64,000 bases of DNA from Stanieria cyanosphaera PCC 7437. GTDB lineage: Bacteria; Cyanobacteriota; Cyanobacteriia; Cyanobacteriales; Xenococcaceae. The position numbers and the translations under genes were made by a program. Below are positions 55,049-61,430 of this stretch, piece after piece. How positions within the stretch are numbered: position 1 is the first letter of the stretch; each line of letters starts with the position of its first letter. Under the pieces are notes generated by a model. The model was not told the DNA's origin. It worked only from the letters and a program-made list of their open reading frames with translations, and ran no database searches. The stretch is taken from contig NC_019748.1 in NCBI RefSeq assembly GCF_000317575.1, positions 698,001 through 762,000 on the forward strand. The letters are read 5' to 3'.

Positions 55049-55473
55049 AAATATTTGAAGTTATATTCAAATACAATTCTGACTAGGTATCAAACAAGAT
55101 CTAATTAGTTTTTTAGATGTTATTTGTAATTTGCCTGGTCTTATTTTTGGGAGTTTCTGGCTCTATAACTACTTTACTATAATTGTAGCGGTCGCATTTT
55201 TCTTTGATGATAAAAATCTTTTGATTTCAACAATTATTTGGACTTGTTATTAGACCGAGGAAGCATCCGCTACAATACATTTAGACTAATTGGACTAAAT
55301 TGAATAACTTGACGAACATACCGAACGGCAAATACTTACCGAACAGCGATGTTGAAAGCCCAGTGTCTTTAGTTATCTTTAGACCTGGGATGAAAACGAG
55401 CGCATTGTTCAGATTAGACACTTTTAAGTGTCCTGACTTCATTGTATTATTGCATTAGAAGGAGGTGAAGCTA
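55049..55473 (+). other. cysC to TnpB gap: inverted repeat and element left end
   Basis: 425 bp without a gene. ATTGTAGCGG (55182-55191) and CCGCTACAAT (55267-55276) form a perfect 10-bp inverted repeat 75 bp apart. Near 55357-55391 CCCAGTGTCTTTAG and CTTTAGACCTGGG can pair; this and ACTTTTAAGTGTCC (55421 region) probably belong to the left end of the TnpB element. AGGAGGTG at 55460-55467 is the tnpB ribosome site. Confidence 0.45.
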
Positions 55474-56838
55474 ATGTATGGCTGCCAGCAAGTGCTACTA
55501 AAGCCAAATAAAGAATTATCGGCTATTTTAGAGTTTCTTTGCCGACAAGCACATAGTTTAACCAACATGGGCATCTACTATGCACGTCAACTCTACCTTA
55601 AAACCAAACGTTACGTTGGCAAGTACGACCTGGAAAAGCTGTACAAAAACAATATCCACTACAAGGTTTTCCATTCTCAAGCAGCACAGCAAATACTTCG
55701 GTCGGTATATGAGTCTTTCTTCTCGTATAAGAAATTAGTTAAAGCCTACAAAGAAGGCAAGTTAGAAGATAGACCAAGACTTCCAAAATACCGCAAGAAA
55801 GGAGGTCTGGCACTAGTATCTTATCCTGGTCAAGCACTGAAATTAAAAGACGGAAGTATCCGAGTACCATTAGGCAAGCAGGTTAAATGCTGGTTCGAAC
55901 TAGATAGTTTTCAACTACCAATGCCGAGCAACATTAATTTAGCTGATGTTAAAGAACTTAGAATACTGCCGAGAAACAAGTGTTTTTATGCGGAATTTGT
56001 ATACAAAAAAGAAATACAAACTTTGGAAGTAGATAAGCAAAATGTACTCGGTATTGACCCAGGACTAAACAATTGGTTAACTTGTGTTTCTAACATCGGA
56101 ACTAGTTTTATTATCGACGGCAAGCATATTAAATCGATGAATCGTTGGTATAACAAGCAAGTTTCAACTCTTAAAGAAGGTAAACCACAAGGTTTTTGGA
56201 GTAATAAATTAGCTGCTATCACCGAAAAGAGAAACAGACAAATTAAAGACGGGATTAATAAAGCTGCTCTTATTGTAATGAATCATTGTTTGGAAAACAG
56301 AATTGGTACGATTGTTTTTGGTTGGAATAAAAGGAACAAAAAAGAAATTGAACTTGGTAAGAAAAATAACTCTGAATTTGTTCCAATTCCAACTGCAAGA
56401 CTGAAAGATAGAATCGAACAACTTTGTTTAGAATATGGGATTCAATTTGTTGAAACTGAAGAATCTTATACCTCAAAAGCTTCATTTTTAGATGGTGATA
56501 CTCTTCCGATTTATGGTGAAAAACCCAAGTGTGAAAACTGGAAACCATCAGGAAAAAGAACGAAACGTGGTTTATATCGAACTGCGAATAATTGGTATAT
56601 TAATGCGGATGCACAATCGGCTGGAAACATCATCCGCAAAGTAAGCATAACACTGGGCATAGACCTAAGTGGAGTGTGTAGGGCGACTTTGACTTCGCCC
56701 CACAGGATAAAACTGTGGTCAGCTAATAAGGAAACAACGCGAAGCAATGTGGCTTTAGCCCGTTGCGAAGCTACCTCATTAGAATCCCCTAGCGAAGCGG
56801 TGCTTGATTCTGGGGGAGCAGTCAATAGCGATAACTGA
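55474..56838 (+). CDS. TnpB-family protein of a zinc-ribbon-less clade
   Basis: 454 residues from ATG 55474, seven bases behind AGGAGGTG. The N-terminal part is helical and basic. VLGIDPGLNNW holds the first RuvC Asp (195), and INADAQSAGNIIRKV the third (Asp379). The second RuvC strand reads TIVFGWNKRNKKEIELGKKNN, so the Glu seen in the copy at 23861 (VEDL) is not in its usual place. The CxxC zinc ribbon is replaced by TEESYTSKASFLDGDTLP. These are features of a distinct IS605 OrfB/TnpB clade. The tail (after about 390) runs through the element's right end and stops 13 bases beyond it. No TnpA is present. Confidence 0.85.
   Translation: MYGCQQVLLKPNKELSAILEFLCRQAHSLTNMGIYYARQLYLKTKRYVGKYDLEKLYKNNIHYKVFHSQAAQQILRSVYESFFSYKKLVKAYKEGKLEDRPRLPKYRKKGGLALVSYPGQALKLKDGSIRVPLGKQVKCWFELDSFQLPMPSNINLADVKELRILPRNKCFYAEFVYKKEIQTLEVDKQNVLGIDPGLNNWLTCVSNIGTSFIIDGKHIKSMNRWYNKQVSTLKEGKPQGFWSNKLAAITEKRNRQIKDGINKAALIVMNHCLENRIGTIVFGWNKRNKKEIELGKKNNSEFVPIPTARLKDRIEQLCLEYGIQFVETEESYTSKASFLDGDTLPIYGEKPKCENWKPSGKRTKRGLYRTANNWYINADAQSAGNIIRKVSITLGIDLSGVCRATLTSPHRIKLWSANKETTRSNVALARCEATSLESPSEAVLDSGGAVNSDN
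56778..56826 (+). ncRNA. Right end of the second TnpB element, predicted reRNA 3' end
   Basis: TAGAATCCCCTAGCGAAGCG, then GATTCTGGGGGAGCAGTCAA. GAATCCCC and the later GGGGG(A) can pair, and the end ..CAGTCAAT resembles the ..ATGTCAAT end of the other family. As in relatives, the RNA would overlap the tnpB 3' end. Inference from family knowledge. Confidence 0.45.
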
Positions 56839-57373: not shown

Positions 57374-58192
57374 TTAAAAGGCAAAAGAATAACCAGCTAC
57401 TAAACGTAACTCATTGGAATCACCTGATTCTCCTGCAATATCTCCCTGTATCCCCAAATCAAGAACACTTTGATAACCAATTTGTTGACGCATACCTACG
57501 CCTAAAGAGACTACTGCACCGTCATTTTCCTCTTCACTAGCTTTTACTCCCACTTCAGCTAAAAAAGTACGGGTAAAGGTTTTGGGATAGCCTATGGGTC
57601 GAGAATAACCCAAGATTACCCCAGGCACAAAAGATCTTTCTTCATCTTCAGTAGCAGTAGCAAAATTAGCATCTAAGTTGAGGTGTAAGCGGTTGGATTG
57701 TCCGACGGTTTTACTAGCAATACCTCTGAGGCGAAAATCTACCCCCTCAGAATCATTCCCTGTAGGAAAAGCCACATCACCCCGTAGGGCAAAAGCTGGA
57801 GTATTATTATATTCGCGATTGAAGTTATGCAGTACTCCTATAGATAAATCCCCGATATTAAATTCTGTCTCGTCATTATCTGATTCAATACTGGGATCTA
57901 TGCCAATATTGAAATGTGTGTTAGGTGCAAAACCATAAAGATATTCGATTTCAAATTCACCCCCAACAGATTTTCCTTCAGGAATAATTAATGCTGCACC
58001 TAAATCTAGAGCTTGTTCACGAAAACCAATTGATTCAGCGTCATCAAAATTGAGGGGACGATTCGCATCAAGATTATTATGATCTGATGCCATAGCGCGA
58101 TCGCTATAAATTAAAGTAAAAGCGACTACCGAAGGTAGCAGCAAAGCGATCGCACCTAGCTTGGCTAGGGAATAAAATTGTAATCTTTGCAT
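57374..58192 (-). CDS. Outer-membrane beta-barrel protein
   Basis: 272 residues. A signal peptide with a long charged start (MQRLQFYSLAKLGAIALLLP, cleavage near 35, DRAMAS) is followed by alternating beta strands, typical of a small barrel: EFEIEYLYGFAPNTHFNIGI, GDLSIGVLHNFN, FALRGDVAFPTGN, LHLNLDANFATA. The protein ends YSFAF, with the terminal aromatic residue used for barrel insertion. It resembles the COG4313-like (transporter/phenol-degradation MetA-type) barrels. It is the last gene of the minus-strand group that begins with the metal-type regulator, 22 bases downstream of the His/Met-rich protein, so it may be the outer-membrane part of that system. Confidence 0.75.
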   Translation of the reverse strand: MQRLQFYSLAKLGAIALLLPSVVAFTLIYSDRAMASDHNNLDANRPLNFDDAESIGFREQALDLGAALIIPEGKSVGGEFEIEYLYGFAPNTHFNIGIDPSIESDNDETEFNIGDLSIGVLHNFNREYNNTPAFALRGDVAFPTGNDSEGVDFRLRGIASKTVGQSNRLHLNLDANFATATEDEERSFVPGVILGYSRPIGYPKTFTRTFLAEVGVKASEEENDGAVVSLGVGMRQQIGYQSVLDLGIQGDIAGESGDSNELRLVAGYSFAF

Positions 58193-58214
58193 TTAGGTTA
58201 GATTGTTTTAATAA

Positions 58215-59438
58215 CTAATGGTTATGCTTGGTATGGTCTTCTTCTGGCTCGCTCATGTTGGGATTATTTTCTCTGCGATCTATCTCAGAATTATTCTCCT
58301 GGTTCATTTGTTGGTGCATGATGTGGGGATTGTTTTGCCTATGATTAAGATGCTCGTATCCTTCAATATCTCCCATCCAGCCCATTCCTGGCATTCCCGC
58401 CATAAAACGGTGGTCGTGTAGCTTGTCATCACCGTAGGTTTTTCCTGCTTCCATTCCTTCGTGATTGGAAGCCATTACTAACCAAATTGCTCGTTGAATT
58501 TGTTCTTCTTGCTGTTTCTCGCTCATCCATTCCGAAGCTAAGGCATCGTTCACCATGTCGTGCAGCATATGAAGGTTGTCAAAGGTATTGGCAATTTTGG
58601 GGAAACGGGCAGCAAAACGGGGGCTAACCTCTGCAAACATGGGCATAAAAGGGCGATCTGTACGATAAAGTTCTACTTCGTGATACTGTTTACCCATTTG
58701 CTCGTAAGCTTGTTGTTGTTCCTCTAAAGTTTTGCCATAGAGTAAGTCATACATCGAACCCTGTAACCAGTGGTAGCCCCAAAACAATCCATTAACTTTG
58801 GGATATTTGTCGCGAAAGGCTTTCGAGTAGGGCTGGGAATCAAGATAACCCATATTCATTGGTAACCCAGTAATGGCATAGGGTACGTTATCGAGATAAA
58901 ACTGATACAAAGCTTCAATCTCCGCTTCTTTTTCTGCTTCAGTTAGTTCCGTACTTGCCAGCACGTCTACTGTTTGGGCATGAAGAATATGCGCCCATTC
59001 AAATACTTGTTCTAATACTCCATACTTGCGTCCAAAGGTAGGAGAAATATTGGCTTCATCGGGCATAAAACGGGGAGGATTTTTTAAAACTTGATTGATC
59101 TTCTCAAAAGTTTTGGTTTCCAATTGATCAGCTTTCCCTGTAATCAAATCCTCATAAGCAAAAGCATGACCGACAGCCACTGCGTTTAAATCTAAAGCAA
59201 GAGGACGAACGTTATAGATATCATCATTATATTTACCACGTTTGCGATAAATATGGTTTTTGTCTTTATTATTCATCCATTTTGGTAAATTTTGTGGCAC
59301 AGGAGGTAATTCTTTTACTTCTTCTGTTGTCATCTGATGATGATGTTCTGATTGAGCGATCGCTGGTGGTAATCCTATAGCGATGAAAGAGAACATGACC
59401 GTACTAGCGGTAATTTTTGAAACTAGATTATTAAACAT
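58215..59438 (-). CDS. Secreted His/Met-rich protein of unknown family
   Basis: 407 residues from ATG 59438. MFNNLVSKITASTVMFSFIA is a clear signal peptide (cleavage near AIAQ); the frame is open further upstream but that is inside the preceding gene. The mature N-terminus starts SEHHHQM. The body is helical, with QVFEWAHILHAQTVDVLA and NLHMLHDMVNDALASEWM as His-containing helices. The C-terminal 70 residues are rich in His, Met and Asn (HDHRFMAGMPGMGWM, HIMHQQMNQ, ending HTKHNH). Such composition binds soft or borderline metals such as copper. I do not recognise the family. It lies between two other envelope genes in one operon. Confidence 0.72.
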   Translation of the reverse strand: MFNNLVSKITASTVMFSFIAIGLPPAIAQSEHHHQMTTEEVKELPPVPQNLPKWMNNKDKNHIYRKRGKYNDDIYNVRPLALDLNAVAVGHAFAYEDLITGKADQLETKTFEKINQVLKNPPRFMPDEANISPTFGRKYGVLEQVFEWAHILHAQTVDVLASTELTEAEKEAEIEALYQFYLDNVPYAITGLPMNMGYLDSQPYSKAFRDKYPKVNGLFWGYHWLQGSMYDLLYGKTLEEQQQAYEQMGKQYHEVELYRTDRPFMPMFAEVSPRFAARFPKIANTFDNLHMLHDMVNDALASEWMSEKQQEEQIQRAIWLVMASNHEGMEAGKTYGDDKLHDHRFMAGMPGMGWMGDIEGYEHLNHRQNNPHIMHQQMNQENNSEIDRRENNPNMSEPEEDHTKHNH

Positions 59439-59454
59439 ATCCAAAATAAACAGG

Positions 59455-59697
59455 CTATTTTTGAGATTGATTTTGAGTATTACATTGATGGTTTTGCTGA
59501 TTTGCCGAATTAGTTGTCGAAGGTTGGCGATGTGGACTATGACACTTAGTTGTATGCTGTTGATTAGAGGGCTGGTTATTAGTAGTAGTTTGTTGTTGTT
59601 GATCATTATTTTGTACTTGGGCAGCAGACATAGATGCGATCTGTAGAGTAATTGCTATTCCTAAAACAAAAATCGATGCGGTTCGTTTATTTTTCAT
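59455..59697 (-). CDS. Small secreted Gln/Asn/His-rich protein
   Basis: 80 residues. MKNKRTASIFVLGIAITLQI then ASMSAAQ is a signal peptide. The mature 50 residues are almost only Gln, Asn, Thr, Ser and His (QNNDQQQQTTTNNQ, HTTKCHSPHRQPS) with two Cys (KCHSPH, HQCNTQ) near His, so a metal-binding or low-complexity envelope peptide. A strong ribosome site GGAGGTG lies 8 bases upstream of ATG. The stop is 16 bases before the next gene, so it leads the envelope operon. The good ribosome site and signal peptide support a real gene despite the low complexity. Confidence 0.65.
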   Translation of the reverse strand: MKNKRTASIFVLGIAITLQIASMSAAQVQNNDQQQQTTTNNQPSNQQHTTKCHSPHRQPSTTNSANQQNHQCNTQNQSQK

Positions 59698-59749
59698 AAA
59701 TAAATCACCTCCAAGAGTTCATATATCTATTTATTGATAGTTCTAAAAA

Positions 59750-59767
59750 ATGAAATCAGAATGAAAT
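59750..59767 (-). promoter_or_regulatory. Direct repeat TTTCAT-N5-TTTCAT upstream of envelope operon
   Basis: On the minus strand ATTTCAT occurs twice with 11-bp spacing (ATTTCATTCTGATTTCAT), about 55-70 bases before the ATG at 59697 and just ahead of TAGAACTATCAATAAATAGA, which offers -10-like boxes. One-turn direct repeats are the usual site form for OmpR/PhoB-class response regulators. No such regulator is in the cluster. Confidence 0.4.
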
Positions 59768-59853
59768 TTGATGCGATTAATTGGATGAGAAATTAAAATC
59801 TACAATTTTCTTTCTTCTAACTTGCTTCAAGATTGTATGTAGCCGTCAAAAGT

Positions 59854-60279
59854 CTAATGTAAAGACACACTGGAAATTAAAGGACAGACTTCTTGAGAAT
59901 TAGATTCGGGATAGGGATTATTTGTCCAAGCAGTTCGATACTCTTCCAATTCGGCTTTAAATAAAGTCATCTGCTTAATCTGAATTTCTAATTGCTCGAT
60001 CTTCTGATTCAGTAAGCTTTTTACCAGACTGCAAGGTTGTTCTCCGCGATCTCTAACATCAAGAAATTGTTTGATTTCTTCTAAAGTAAATCCCAAAGCC
60101 TGAGCTTTTTTAATGAATTTTACTTGAGAACTGGCATCTTGACTGTAATAGCGATAACCATTGTCTCCCCGTAAGGAAGGGAGTAAAAGCCCTAAATCGC
60201 TGTAATAACGCAAAGTTCCCACTGCAATACCTGTTTGTTTGGCTAATTCACCAATTTTTAAAAAATTTATTTGATTCAT
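59854..60279 (-). CDS. MerR-family heavy-metal-responsive regulator
   Basis: 141 residues. The winged helix is IGELAKQTGIAVGTLRYYSD and the segment SLRGDNGYRYYSQD. A coiled-coil dimerisation helix runs at about 85-118 (SLLNQKIEQLEIQIKQMTLF). Cys83 (GEQPCSLV) aligns with the +2/mercury-type Cys position of MerR and ZntR; Cys132 lies in SQEVCPLI, the usual C-terminal metal loop. The Cys near 117 of mercury MerR is missing, so ligand identity is open (zinc, cadmium, lead, mercury or a thiol signal). It has a dyad-centred promoter upstream (60313-60344) and lies between the MauE-like gene and the envelope operon. Confidence 0.88.
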   Translation of the reverse strand: MNQINFLKIGELAKQTGIAVGTLRYYSDLGLLLPSLRGDNGYRYYSQDASSQVKFIKKAQALGFTLEEIKQFLDVRDRGEQPCSLVKSLLNQKIEQLEIQIKQMTLFKAELEEYRTAWTNNPYPESNSQEVCPLISSVSLH

Positions 60280-60312
60280 AATTACTTTGCCACTTATTCT
60301 CGCTACTCCTTA

Positions 60313-60344
60313 AGTTTAGACTCTCTAGTATACTAGAGAGTCAA
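60313..60344 (-). promoter_or_regulatory. MerR-type promoter/operator upstream of merR-like gene
   Basis: On the minus strand TTGACT (60344-60339) and TAAACT (60318-60313) are separated by 20 bp, the over-long spacer that MerR regulators need to untwist. A perfect 22-bp palindrome (ACTCTCTAGTA plus its complement, 60320-60341) sits between and overlapping them. The predicted start lies about 25-30 bases ahead of the regulator's ATG. Confidence 0.8.
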
Positions 60345-60378
60345 GGTAGGGATAGTCCAGAATATAGGTTGTATTTCT

Positions 60379-61170
60379 CTATCTACTTGCATCTTGCAAC
60401 TGAACGATCGCGTTGGGTTCGGCTTCTTTTATTTTTACCGATTCAGCTTCTCCTGTAGTCGCAGAAAAAATAAGTGCTGCGCCCATAATTGTCATAATCG
60501 CATTCTCGGTAAAGCTGACAATTCCTAAAGGTGCTTTAGAATTTCCCCCAACACAGGCACAGTTGAGGGCTAGCTTGTCAATATAAACGGCTTTAAATAC
60601 CGATATGCCACCACTAATACCAATAAATAGAGAAGTTATTCCTGTAGCTAATGGGGCGATACCCGAGAGAAAACCCAATCCTATCGCCAATTCTGCAAAA
60701 GGATATATTTTGGCATAGGGTTTAATTCTTTTAGTGATAAGGTCGTATTTGGTAAAACTTTCGGCAAAAGATTCAATATCCATTAGCTTAAGTGAAGCCA
60801 GTAGAGACAGAGAAAAACCCATAAATCCCGTAAGCCCCATTGTAGTAGCCAAAGCCATCAACCCCGCGGTAGAGAAGATGGCAATCACGGGAGTATAAGA
60901 ATATTCTGCACCTTCTGCTTCCACATCCAGCTTTTCCGCTAGATCGGTATAACCGCCAATTCTTTCCTCACCAAAGAAAATCTGCGGTGTAGTTTGTACC
61001 TTGTATTTGGCTTTAAAAGCTTCGGTTTCTTCTTGCGATTTTAGTTTATGATCTTCAAATTCGATTCCTTTTTCTCTTAGCAAATTAACTGCTTTTAATC
61101 CCCAAGGACATTCGTGTTCTGGGGTAGACATCCGATATACTCTTACTTTTTCTAAAGTGGCACTATTCAT
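60379..61170 (-). CDS. Glutaredoxin-MauE fusion membrane protein
   Basis: 263 residues. The N-terminal part (1-82) is a glutaredoxin-like domain: VRVYRMSTPEHECPWGLKAV with a monothiol CPWG (Cys21), cis-proline TTPQIF and GGYTDL. The C-terminal part (about 93-240) has four hydrophobic helices of the MauE/DoxX-like family, with Cys204 and Cys206 in LNCACVGGN at a helix end. Such fusions pass reducing equivalents or thiols across the membrane; MauE supports disulfide formation in methylamine dehydrogenase. It is the first gene on the minus strand of the metal-type cluster, behind its own dyad promoter (61213-61244). Confidence 0.82.
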   Translation of the reverse strand: MNSATLEKVRVYRMSTPEHECPWGLKAVNLLREKGIEFEDHKLKSQEETEAFKAKYKVQTTPQIFFGEERIGGYTDLAEKLDVEAEGAEYSYTPVIAIFSTAGLMALATTMGLTGFMGFSLSLLASLKLMDIESFAESFTKYDLITKRIKPYAKIYPFAELAIGLGFLSGIAPLATGITSLFIGISGGISVFKAVYIDKLALNCACVGGNSKAPLGIVSFTENAIMTIMGAALIFSATTGEAESVKIKEAEPNAIVQLQDASR

Positions 61171-61212
61171 ACTATTTGACTATTCAATGTTGTTTAGATT
61201 GGAGTTAAATTA

Positions 61213-61244
61213 AGTTTAGACTCTACAGTTAACTAGAAAGTCAA
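61213..61244 (-). promoter_or_regulatory. MerR-type promoter/operator upstream of glutaredoxin-MauE gene
   Basis: Same layout as the site at 60313: TTGACT (61244-61239), 20-bp spacer, TAAACT (61218-61213). The dyad at 61220-61241 is imperfect (8 of 11 half-site positions match), with a TTAA centre. The downstream bases AAGTTTAGACTC are shared with the other site. The ATG follows 43 bases after the -10 box. Confidence 0.72.
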
Positions 61245-61430
61245 GTGCCTATTGTTTGGTTTTTGAAATTAATTACTGACGTTTTTTCTTCTCTGCAATT
61301 GTCATTTTCTGGTCATATTAGTTTTCAACACTTTGAAATAGCAGGATTTTAAAGCGATTAAGCTATCAATTATTACGCGATCGTTTCCTGATATTGCGCT
61401 AAACGCACCTATAGTTTATGCAGAGTAAAA
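61245..61430. other. Intergenic, amino-acid permease promoter region
   Basis: 186 AT-rich bases between the operator and the permease start, with GCGATCGTTTCCTGATATTG near 61378. No third dyad of the 60320 type was found on this side, so the permease is probably outside the regulon. Confidence 0.35.

Follow-up and report, generated by a model that had tools for sequence, protein, structure and literature searches.

The five adjacent genes for a glutaredoxin-MauE fusion, a MerR-family regulator (P0002), a small secreted protein (P0003), a secreted His/Met-rich protein (P0004) and an outer-membrane barrel (P0005) in the cyanobacterium Stanieria cyanosphaera PCC 7437 raise the question of whether they constitute one metal-handling unit, and which of them handle which metal. 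The window, that is, the whole stretch of DNA analysed, comprises 64,000 nt (NC_019748.1, positions 698,001-762,000, forward strand), and all positions given below are window positions. All five minus-strand genes described in an earlier note made from the sequence were confirmed (57374-61170; Table 1), and domains were called with Pfam and NCBIfam at curated cut-offs. The gaps of 16 and 22 bases that it gave between the last three genes hold for a P0004 start at 59438; the open reading frame can be extended in frame to 59606, where it overlaps the P0003 gene, and the shorter start is preferred because homologues begin with a signal peptide near that site. The conservation of the locus and its regulatory sites make it more than a chance assembly, and the idea of an envelope/metal system, in which a MerR regulator accompanies a secreted His/Met-rich protein of unrecognised family and an outer-membrane barrel, is supported. 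The five genes form two transcription units, one containing the fusion and merR and the other P0003-P0004-P0005, and the core is the pair P0004-P0005, which, judging from genomic context and sequence, is very probably linked to copper.

Among about 85,000 species genomes scanned, 56 loci with P0004 relatives were found, in cyanobacteria (Microcystis, Aphanothece, Chroococcus, Chlorogloeopsis and others), in many Armatimonadota and in metagenome-assembled genomes labelled Acidobacteria, Actinomycetota, Zixibacteria and Chloroflexi, where such labels can be wrong. A P0005 relative lies directly after P0004 in all 55 loci with sufficient contig; the two genes overlap by 4 nt in 40 loci and are separated by 22 nt in the window. 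The pair is also present on two Methylobacterium plasmids (28-31% identity) and, in reversed order, on a Gemmatirosa plasmid. A CopA-type ATPase is encoded near the pair in 25 of the 50 non-redundant loci versus ~1-2% expected (about three such genes per genome), and other neighbours include a YHS-YtkA-cupredoxin protein (28 loci), CsoR/RicR-like repressors (9), MerR regulators (10 cyanobacterial loci) and DUF305 proteins. Armatimonadota loci (L062:7317-7970, L064:7398-7940 and others) also encode, directly before P0004, a secreted protein of ~155 residues with CPYC and CIYC motifs; this protein and the nearby YHS-YtkA-cupredoxin protein look uncharacterised, and a search of the literature on copper in Armatimonadota found nothing relevant.

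P0004 contains 21 His and 23 Met residues and no Cys. Described earlier as a member of no recognised family, it indeed matches none in Pfam or NCBIfam, and a Pfam scan of its relatives (50 members) was also blank; searches against PDB sequences, PDB folds and viral folds revealed no similarity either. AlphaFold modelling predicts an all-helical core (residues 41-340, with a predicted local distance difference test score >80, mostly >90), which makes P0004 a predicted helical protein without a known fold in the PDB and viral fold libraries. Comparison of its helical units with hhalign indicated a clear internal repeat for units 2 and 4 (E 5.6e-16), a weaker one for units 3 and 4 (E 1.5e-4) and a marginal one for units 2 and 3 (E 0.028); only three repeats are claimed, because the first unit does not resemble the other three in sequence. 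Across 50 sequences from several phyla, nine His residues never vary, nor do several Met, Glu and Asp residues, and the core also includes invariant Trp and Tyr. A relationship to DUF305/CopM was considered and discarded (no Pfam match, no profile similarity), and an ANIS5 metal-binding domain was rejected as too weak (Pfam E 0.059 in P0004 itself; 3 of 50 members, best E 2e-4). The same genome contains a decayed second copy at C1:4514116 (L013:9092-9538), with a piece of P0004 fused to the end of a P0005 gene, and one Methylobacterium relative (L117:8716-10125) has a Tat-like (twin-arginine translocation) signal, SRRGLL, which would suggest folded export.

P0005 matches PF13557 with 28.1 bits against a cut-off of 22, the only Pfam family listed up to E 1, and its model is an outer-membrane barrel with a terminal Phe. 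Among solved structures, FapF and the COG4313 channel 4rl8 come closest (template modelling (TM) score about 0.65; E 2e-7 for 4rl8), with PcoB lower among the fold matches (TM 0.44). P0005 shares the barrel fold and the PF13557 match with the COG4313 channel and FapF, but has ~12% sequence identity to them and differs in its dedicated partner P0004 and its conserved X-Asp-His start. This predicted mature start occurs in 49 of 55 relatives, with the signal cut placed by a simple A-x-A rule and not a trained signal-peptide program, and with a 56th sequence, the paralogue at L078 that lacks the His, excluded. A free N-terminus that reads X-X-His constitutes the amino-terminal Cu(II)/Ni(II)-binding (ATCUN) motif. 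A search of the literature linking PF13557 with copper found nothing relevant.

The single complete five-gene unit proposed in the earlier note is not supported, given a separate promoter element, of another regulatory type, for P0003-P0005, and the distribution of the genes. In a 292-genome sample of the phylum, P0004 occurs in 6 genomes and the fusion in 19, both only in the window's own genome, and the neighbourhood is partly kept in the family relatives read. Among these, G312 lacks the small gene but otherwise keeps the order fusion, MerR, P0004, P0005, and G295 has a dyad, the fusion, P0004 and P0005, then MerR; in the same-genus G292 (L138:2648-4174), a transposase adjoins a shortened glutaredoxin-MauE gene, merR is also truncated, and P0004 and P0005 remain intact, and G311 has only the repeat, P0004 and P0005. 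Outside the family, G322 carries a distant pair, behind which lie genes for an OmpR-type regulator and a kinase. The view of the fusion and MerR as unrelated neighbours of the pair was revised, as family relatives show the same set; they are companions of the P0004-P0005 core at the family level only.

The fusion exceeds the Pfam cut-offs for both of its domains (MauE, 44.8 bits versus 27; glutaredoxin, 36.8 bits). A dithiol glutaredoxin requires a two-cysteine, CPYC-type site, but the fusion reads CPWG, with one cysteine; a CxC is kept in the MauE part. Beyond what had been described earlier, two MerR-type dyad promoters and one CopR-like direct repeat were found. The MerR-type promoter pattern matches twice in the window, before the fusion and before merR, versus 0.00 matches expected by chance. 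The same dyad operator is located elsewhere in this genome: on plasmid C4 before an 89% identical copy of the fusion and again just behind that copy, and before a CopZ-like chaperone gene and a copper ATPase gene (TIGR01511, 668 bits); a chromosomal site lies ahead of DUF411 and multicopper oxidase genes. Comparable dyads are found ahead of genes for MerR, DUF411 and thiol proteins in other cyanobacteria, and in other genera ahead of the fusion gene or the MerR gene divergent from it; in picocyanobacteria, a (glutaredoxin-)MauE gene adjoins DUF411 and multicopper oxidase genes. By gene context, the genes behind the dyad operators form a copper regulon, and the metal sensed would be copper. In G295 (L139:9328-10634), a MerR dyad also lies ahead of a predicted permease, a possible further regulon member.

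P0002 has the helix-turn-helix domain and the long-spacer dyad promoter of MerR activators in general, but scores below every curated MerR sub-family cut-off of NCBIfam. It shares the MerR fold, a dyad promoter with a 20-bp spacer and an operator before its own gene with CueR, MerR(Hg), ZntR and CadR/PbrR, and differs from all of them by these sub-threshold scores and by having only two metal-site cysteines. For CueR the score is 84.8 bits versus a cut-off of 147.4, with one loop cysteine instead of a pair; for mercury MerR it is 92.9 bits versus 150.85, with two of the three mercury cysteines. One cysteine of P0002 stands where CueR has Ser77, and the single C-terminal loop cysteine (CPLI) is also found in MerR proteins near CopA of other cyanobacteria. 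The cysteines are not decisive as to the metal; the regulon points to copper.

The second unit is preceded by a direct repeat resembling the site TTCATN4-5TTCAT, which is bound by Synechocystis CopR (PMC4182526). Genome-wide, 12 such repeats with at most one mismatch were found versus 4 for a reversed-pattern control; nine are on the 309-kb plasmid C4 (binomial P 1e-9 for this clustering), C3 has two, and the 5.04-Mb chromosome has a single one, the repeat before P0003. Most of the C4 repeats adjoin copA-copB, CusB/CusA-like, P-ATPase and DUF305 genes, and the same repeat type is located directly ahead of P0004 in Aphanothece, Chroococcus, G292 and G311. Given the dyads and the direct repeat, two regulators of different types, both copper-linked by context, meet at the locus, and a MerR-type and a CopR-like regulator would act at these sites. 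Plasmid C4 (L024, L025, L115) appears as a large copper island, with copA-copB, copper ATPases, a CusB/CusA-like pump, a DUF305 protein, several RppAB-like two-component systems and many CopR-like repeats. P0003, which contains two Cys, 17 Gln, 11 Asn and 4 His residues, is accessory; no homologue was found in the four family relatives read, and a paralogue is encoded on a plasmid before a CusB-like gene.

With its copper-gene surroundings and copper-type promoters, the locus resembles copper-efflux systems; the earlier statement that no known cop system matches holds for P0004 and fails for the context, which is copper throughout. In Caulobacter, PcoA and PcoB are encoded by a two-gene operon with a four-base overlap, copper efflux requires His in the flexible N-terminus of the barrel, and this N-terminus stabilises PcoA (PMC12509749). 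The pair P0004-P0005 shares with PcoA-PcoB and CopA-CopB the plan of a periplasmic protein gene followed by a barrel gene, the coupling of the genes, the His near the N-terminus of the barrel and the copper context. Its parts are different: neither P0004 nor its 49 relatives match the multicopper oxidase families to which the PcoA/CopA partner belongs, and P0005 belongs to PF13557, unlike the CopB barrel (PF05275), which is matched by the copB product of plasmid C4, where this genome also has a true copA-copB pair. A further parallel is CopM (DUF305), with CopMRS/CopBAC, of Synechocystis: CopM likewise is secreted, helical and rich in Met and His, and its promoter has a CopR-type element (PMC4335983, PMC4182526), but P0004 is not a DUF305 protein. 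The pair is rated as a variant on the known PcoAB plan, built from other parts and with a central protein to which the searched libraries give no family name.

By analogy, P0004-P0005 would probably carry out a PcoAB-like hand-over of copper and its efflux through an outer-membrane channel with an unrelated periplasmic partner. Computation establishes the conserved pair, its copper surroundings, the regulatory sites, the barrel fold and the lack of P0004 relatives in the libraries searched. In the scheme we infer for metal binding, transfer, direction of transport and the two inducers, P0004 would be exported and would bind copper via His and Met residues on its repeated helices and flexible tail, and would pass it to P0005, whose X-Asp-His mature N-terminus, a predicted ATCUN-type Cu(II) site, may extend into the periplasm; copper would then exit the cell through P0005. 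A CopRS-type two-component system probably induces P0003-P0005, and the MerR sensor would induce its own gene and the glutaredoxin-MauE membrane redox protein, which may maintain the redox state of envelope thiols or of copper.

It is unlikely, though worth weighing, that P0004 is a metal-dependent periplasmic enzyme, e.g., a copper or iron oxidase or reductase, with P0005 passing an organic substrate or product and copper being a cofactor or a stress and not the cargo. The core of P0004, where not only His but also Trp, Tyr, Glu and Asp residues are invariant, is far more conserved than a plain metal sponge would require, the Tat-like signal of the Methylobacterium relative is of a kind often found in cofactor-loaded enzymes, and PF13557 is named after a phenol-degradation pathway; however, P0004 shows no similarity to any enzyme family or fold searched, and the genes that recur beside the pair are for copper export and not for a pathway. 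Rather less probable still is that the MerR part senses mercury or thiol-reactive metals in general, with the locus serving mercury or thiol stress and the fusion repairing thiols. The cyanobacterial MerR protein Slr0701 of Synechocystis answers mercury and controls merA (PMC6741143), and P0002 has its Cys at the CueR serine position and the CPLI cysteine, but only two of three mercury cysteines; the operator precedes copper genes, with merA at none of the sites read, and P0003-P0005 are under a different promoter element. The primers of the slr0701 promoter, used to look for orthology of P0002 and Slr0701, have no match in the loci examined. Least probable of all is import, in which P0005 would take copper in under starvation and P0004 would receive it: a high-affinity Cu(II) N-terminus could also serve inward passage through an outer-membrane channel, but the promoter elements and the neighbours (CopA, a CusBA-like pump, the CopA/CopB oxidase pair) fit copper excess.

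Several observations weigh against copper efflux through P0004-P0005 itself. The pair loci are mutually related, which makes P-values for co-location with copper genes optimistic, and the relatives on the Methylobacterium plasmids are not beside recognised copper genes. In 6 of the 55 P0005 relatives the predicted cut is one residue earlier, leaving the His at position 4; none of the COG4313/PF13557 channels is known here to conduct metals; and the half-sites of the repeat before P0003 have N6 spacing, compared with the published N4-5.

Table 1. Features of the locus in window positions.
Feature	Positions	Strand	Basis
MerR-type promoter of the glutaredoxin-MauE gene (TTGACT, 20-bp spacer with dyad, TAAACT)	61211..61244	-	pattern search
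Glutaredoxin-MauE fusion	60379..61170	-	Pfam domains
MerR-type promoter of merR, near-perfect dyad, 20-bp spacer	60311..60344	-	pattern search
MerR-family regulator P0002, Cys83, C-terminal CPLI	59854..60279	-	MerR helix-turn-helix
CopR-like direct repeat ATTTCATTCTGATTTCATT before P0003	59749..59767	-	likeness to Synechocystis CopR site
P0003, small secreted Gln/Asn/His-rich protein, accessory	59455..59697	-	composition, signal peptide
P0004, secreted His/Met-rich helical-repeat protein, first half of conserved pair	58215..59438	-	homologues, model
P0005, outer-membrane barrel COG4313/PF13557, predicted mature start Ser-Asp-His	57374..58192	-	Pfam, model

Beside the locus, a gene for a TnpB-type transposon protein (55465-56838) is probably a recent insertion, since it is missing at that place in the same-genus G292 (L138).

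How copper gets across the outer membrane when no tripartite pump is involved is little understood, even in the case of PcoB, and a second, unrelated pair on the PcoAB plan, found across phyla and with a short predicted copper-binding channel N-terminus, would provide an independent test of the hand-over model. The analysis proposes a function for a widespread protein family unnamed in the libraries searched and would extend cyanobacterial copper resistance past CopMRS and CopBAC. More tentatively, and with somewhat less than even confidence, P0004 may found a new fold family of metal-binding proteins, with tandem helical repeats and His-x-x-His helices, which, together with a dedicated channel bearing a Cu(II)-binding N-terminus, could represent an undescribed copper exit route common to cyanobacteria, Armatimonadota and scattered proteobacteria.

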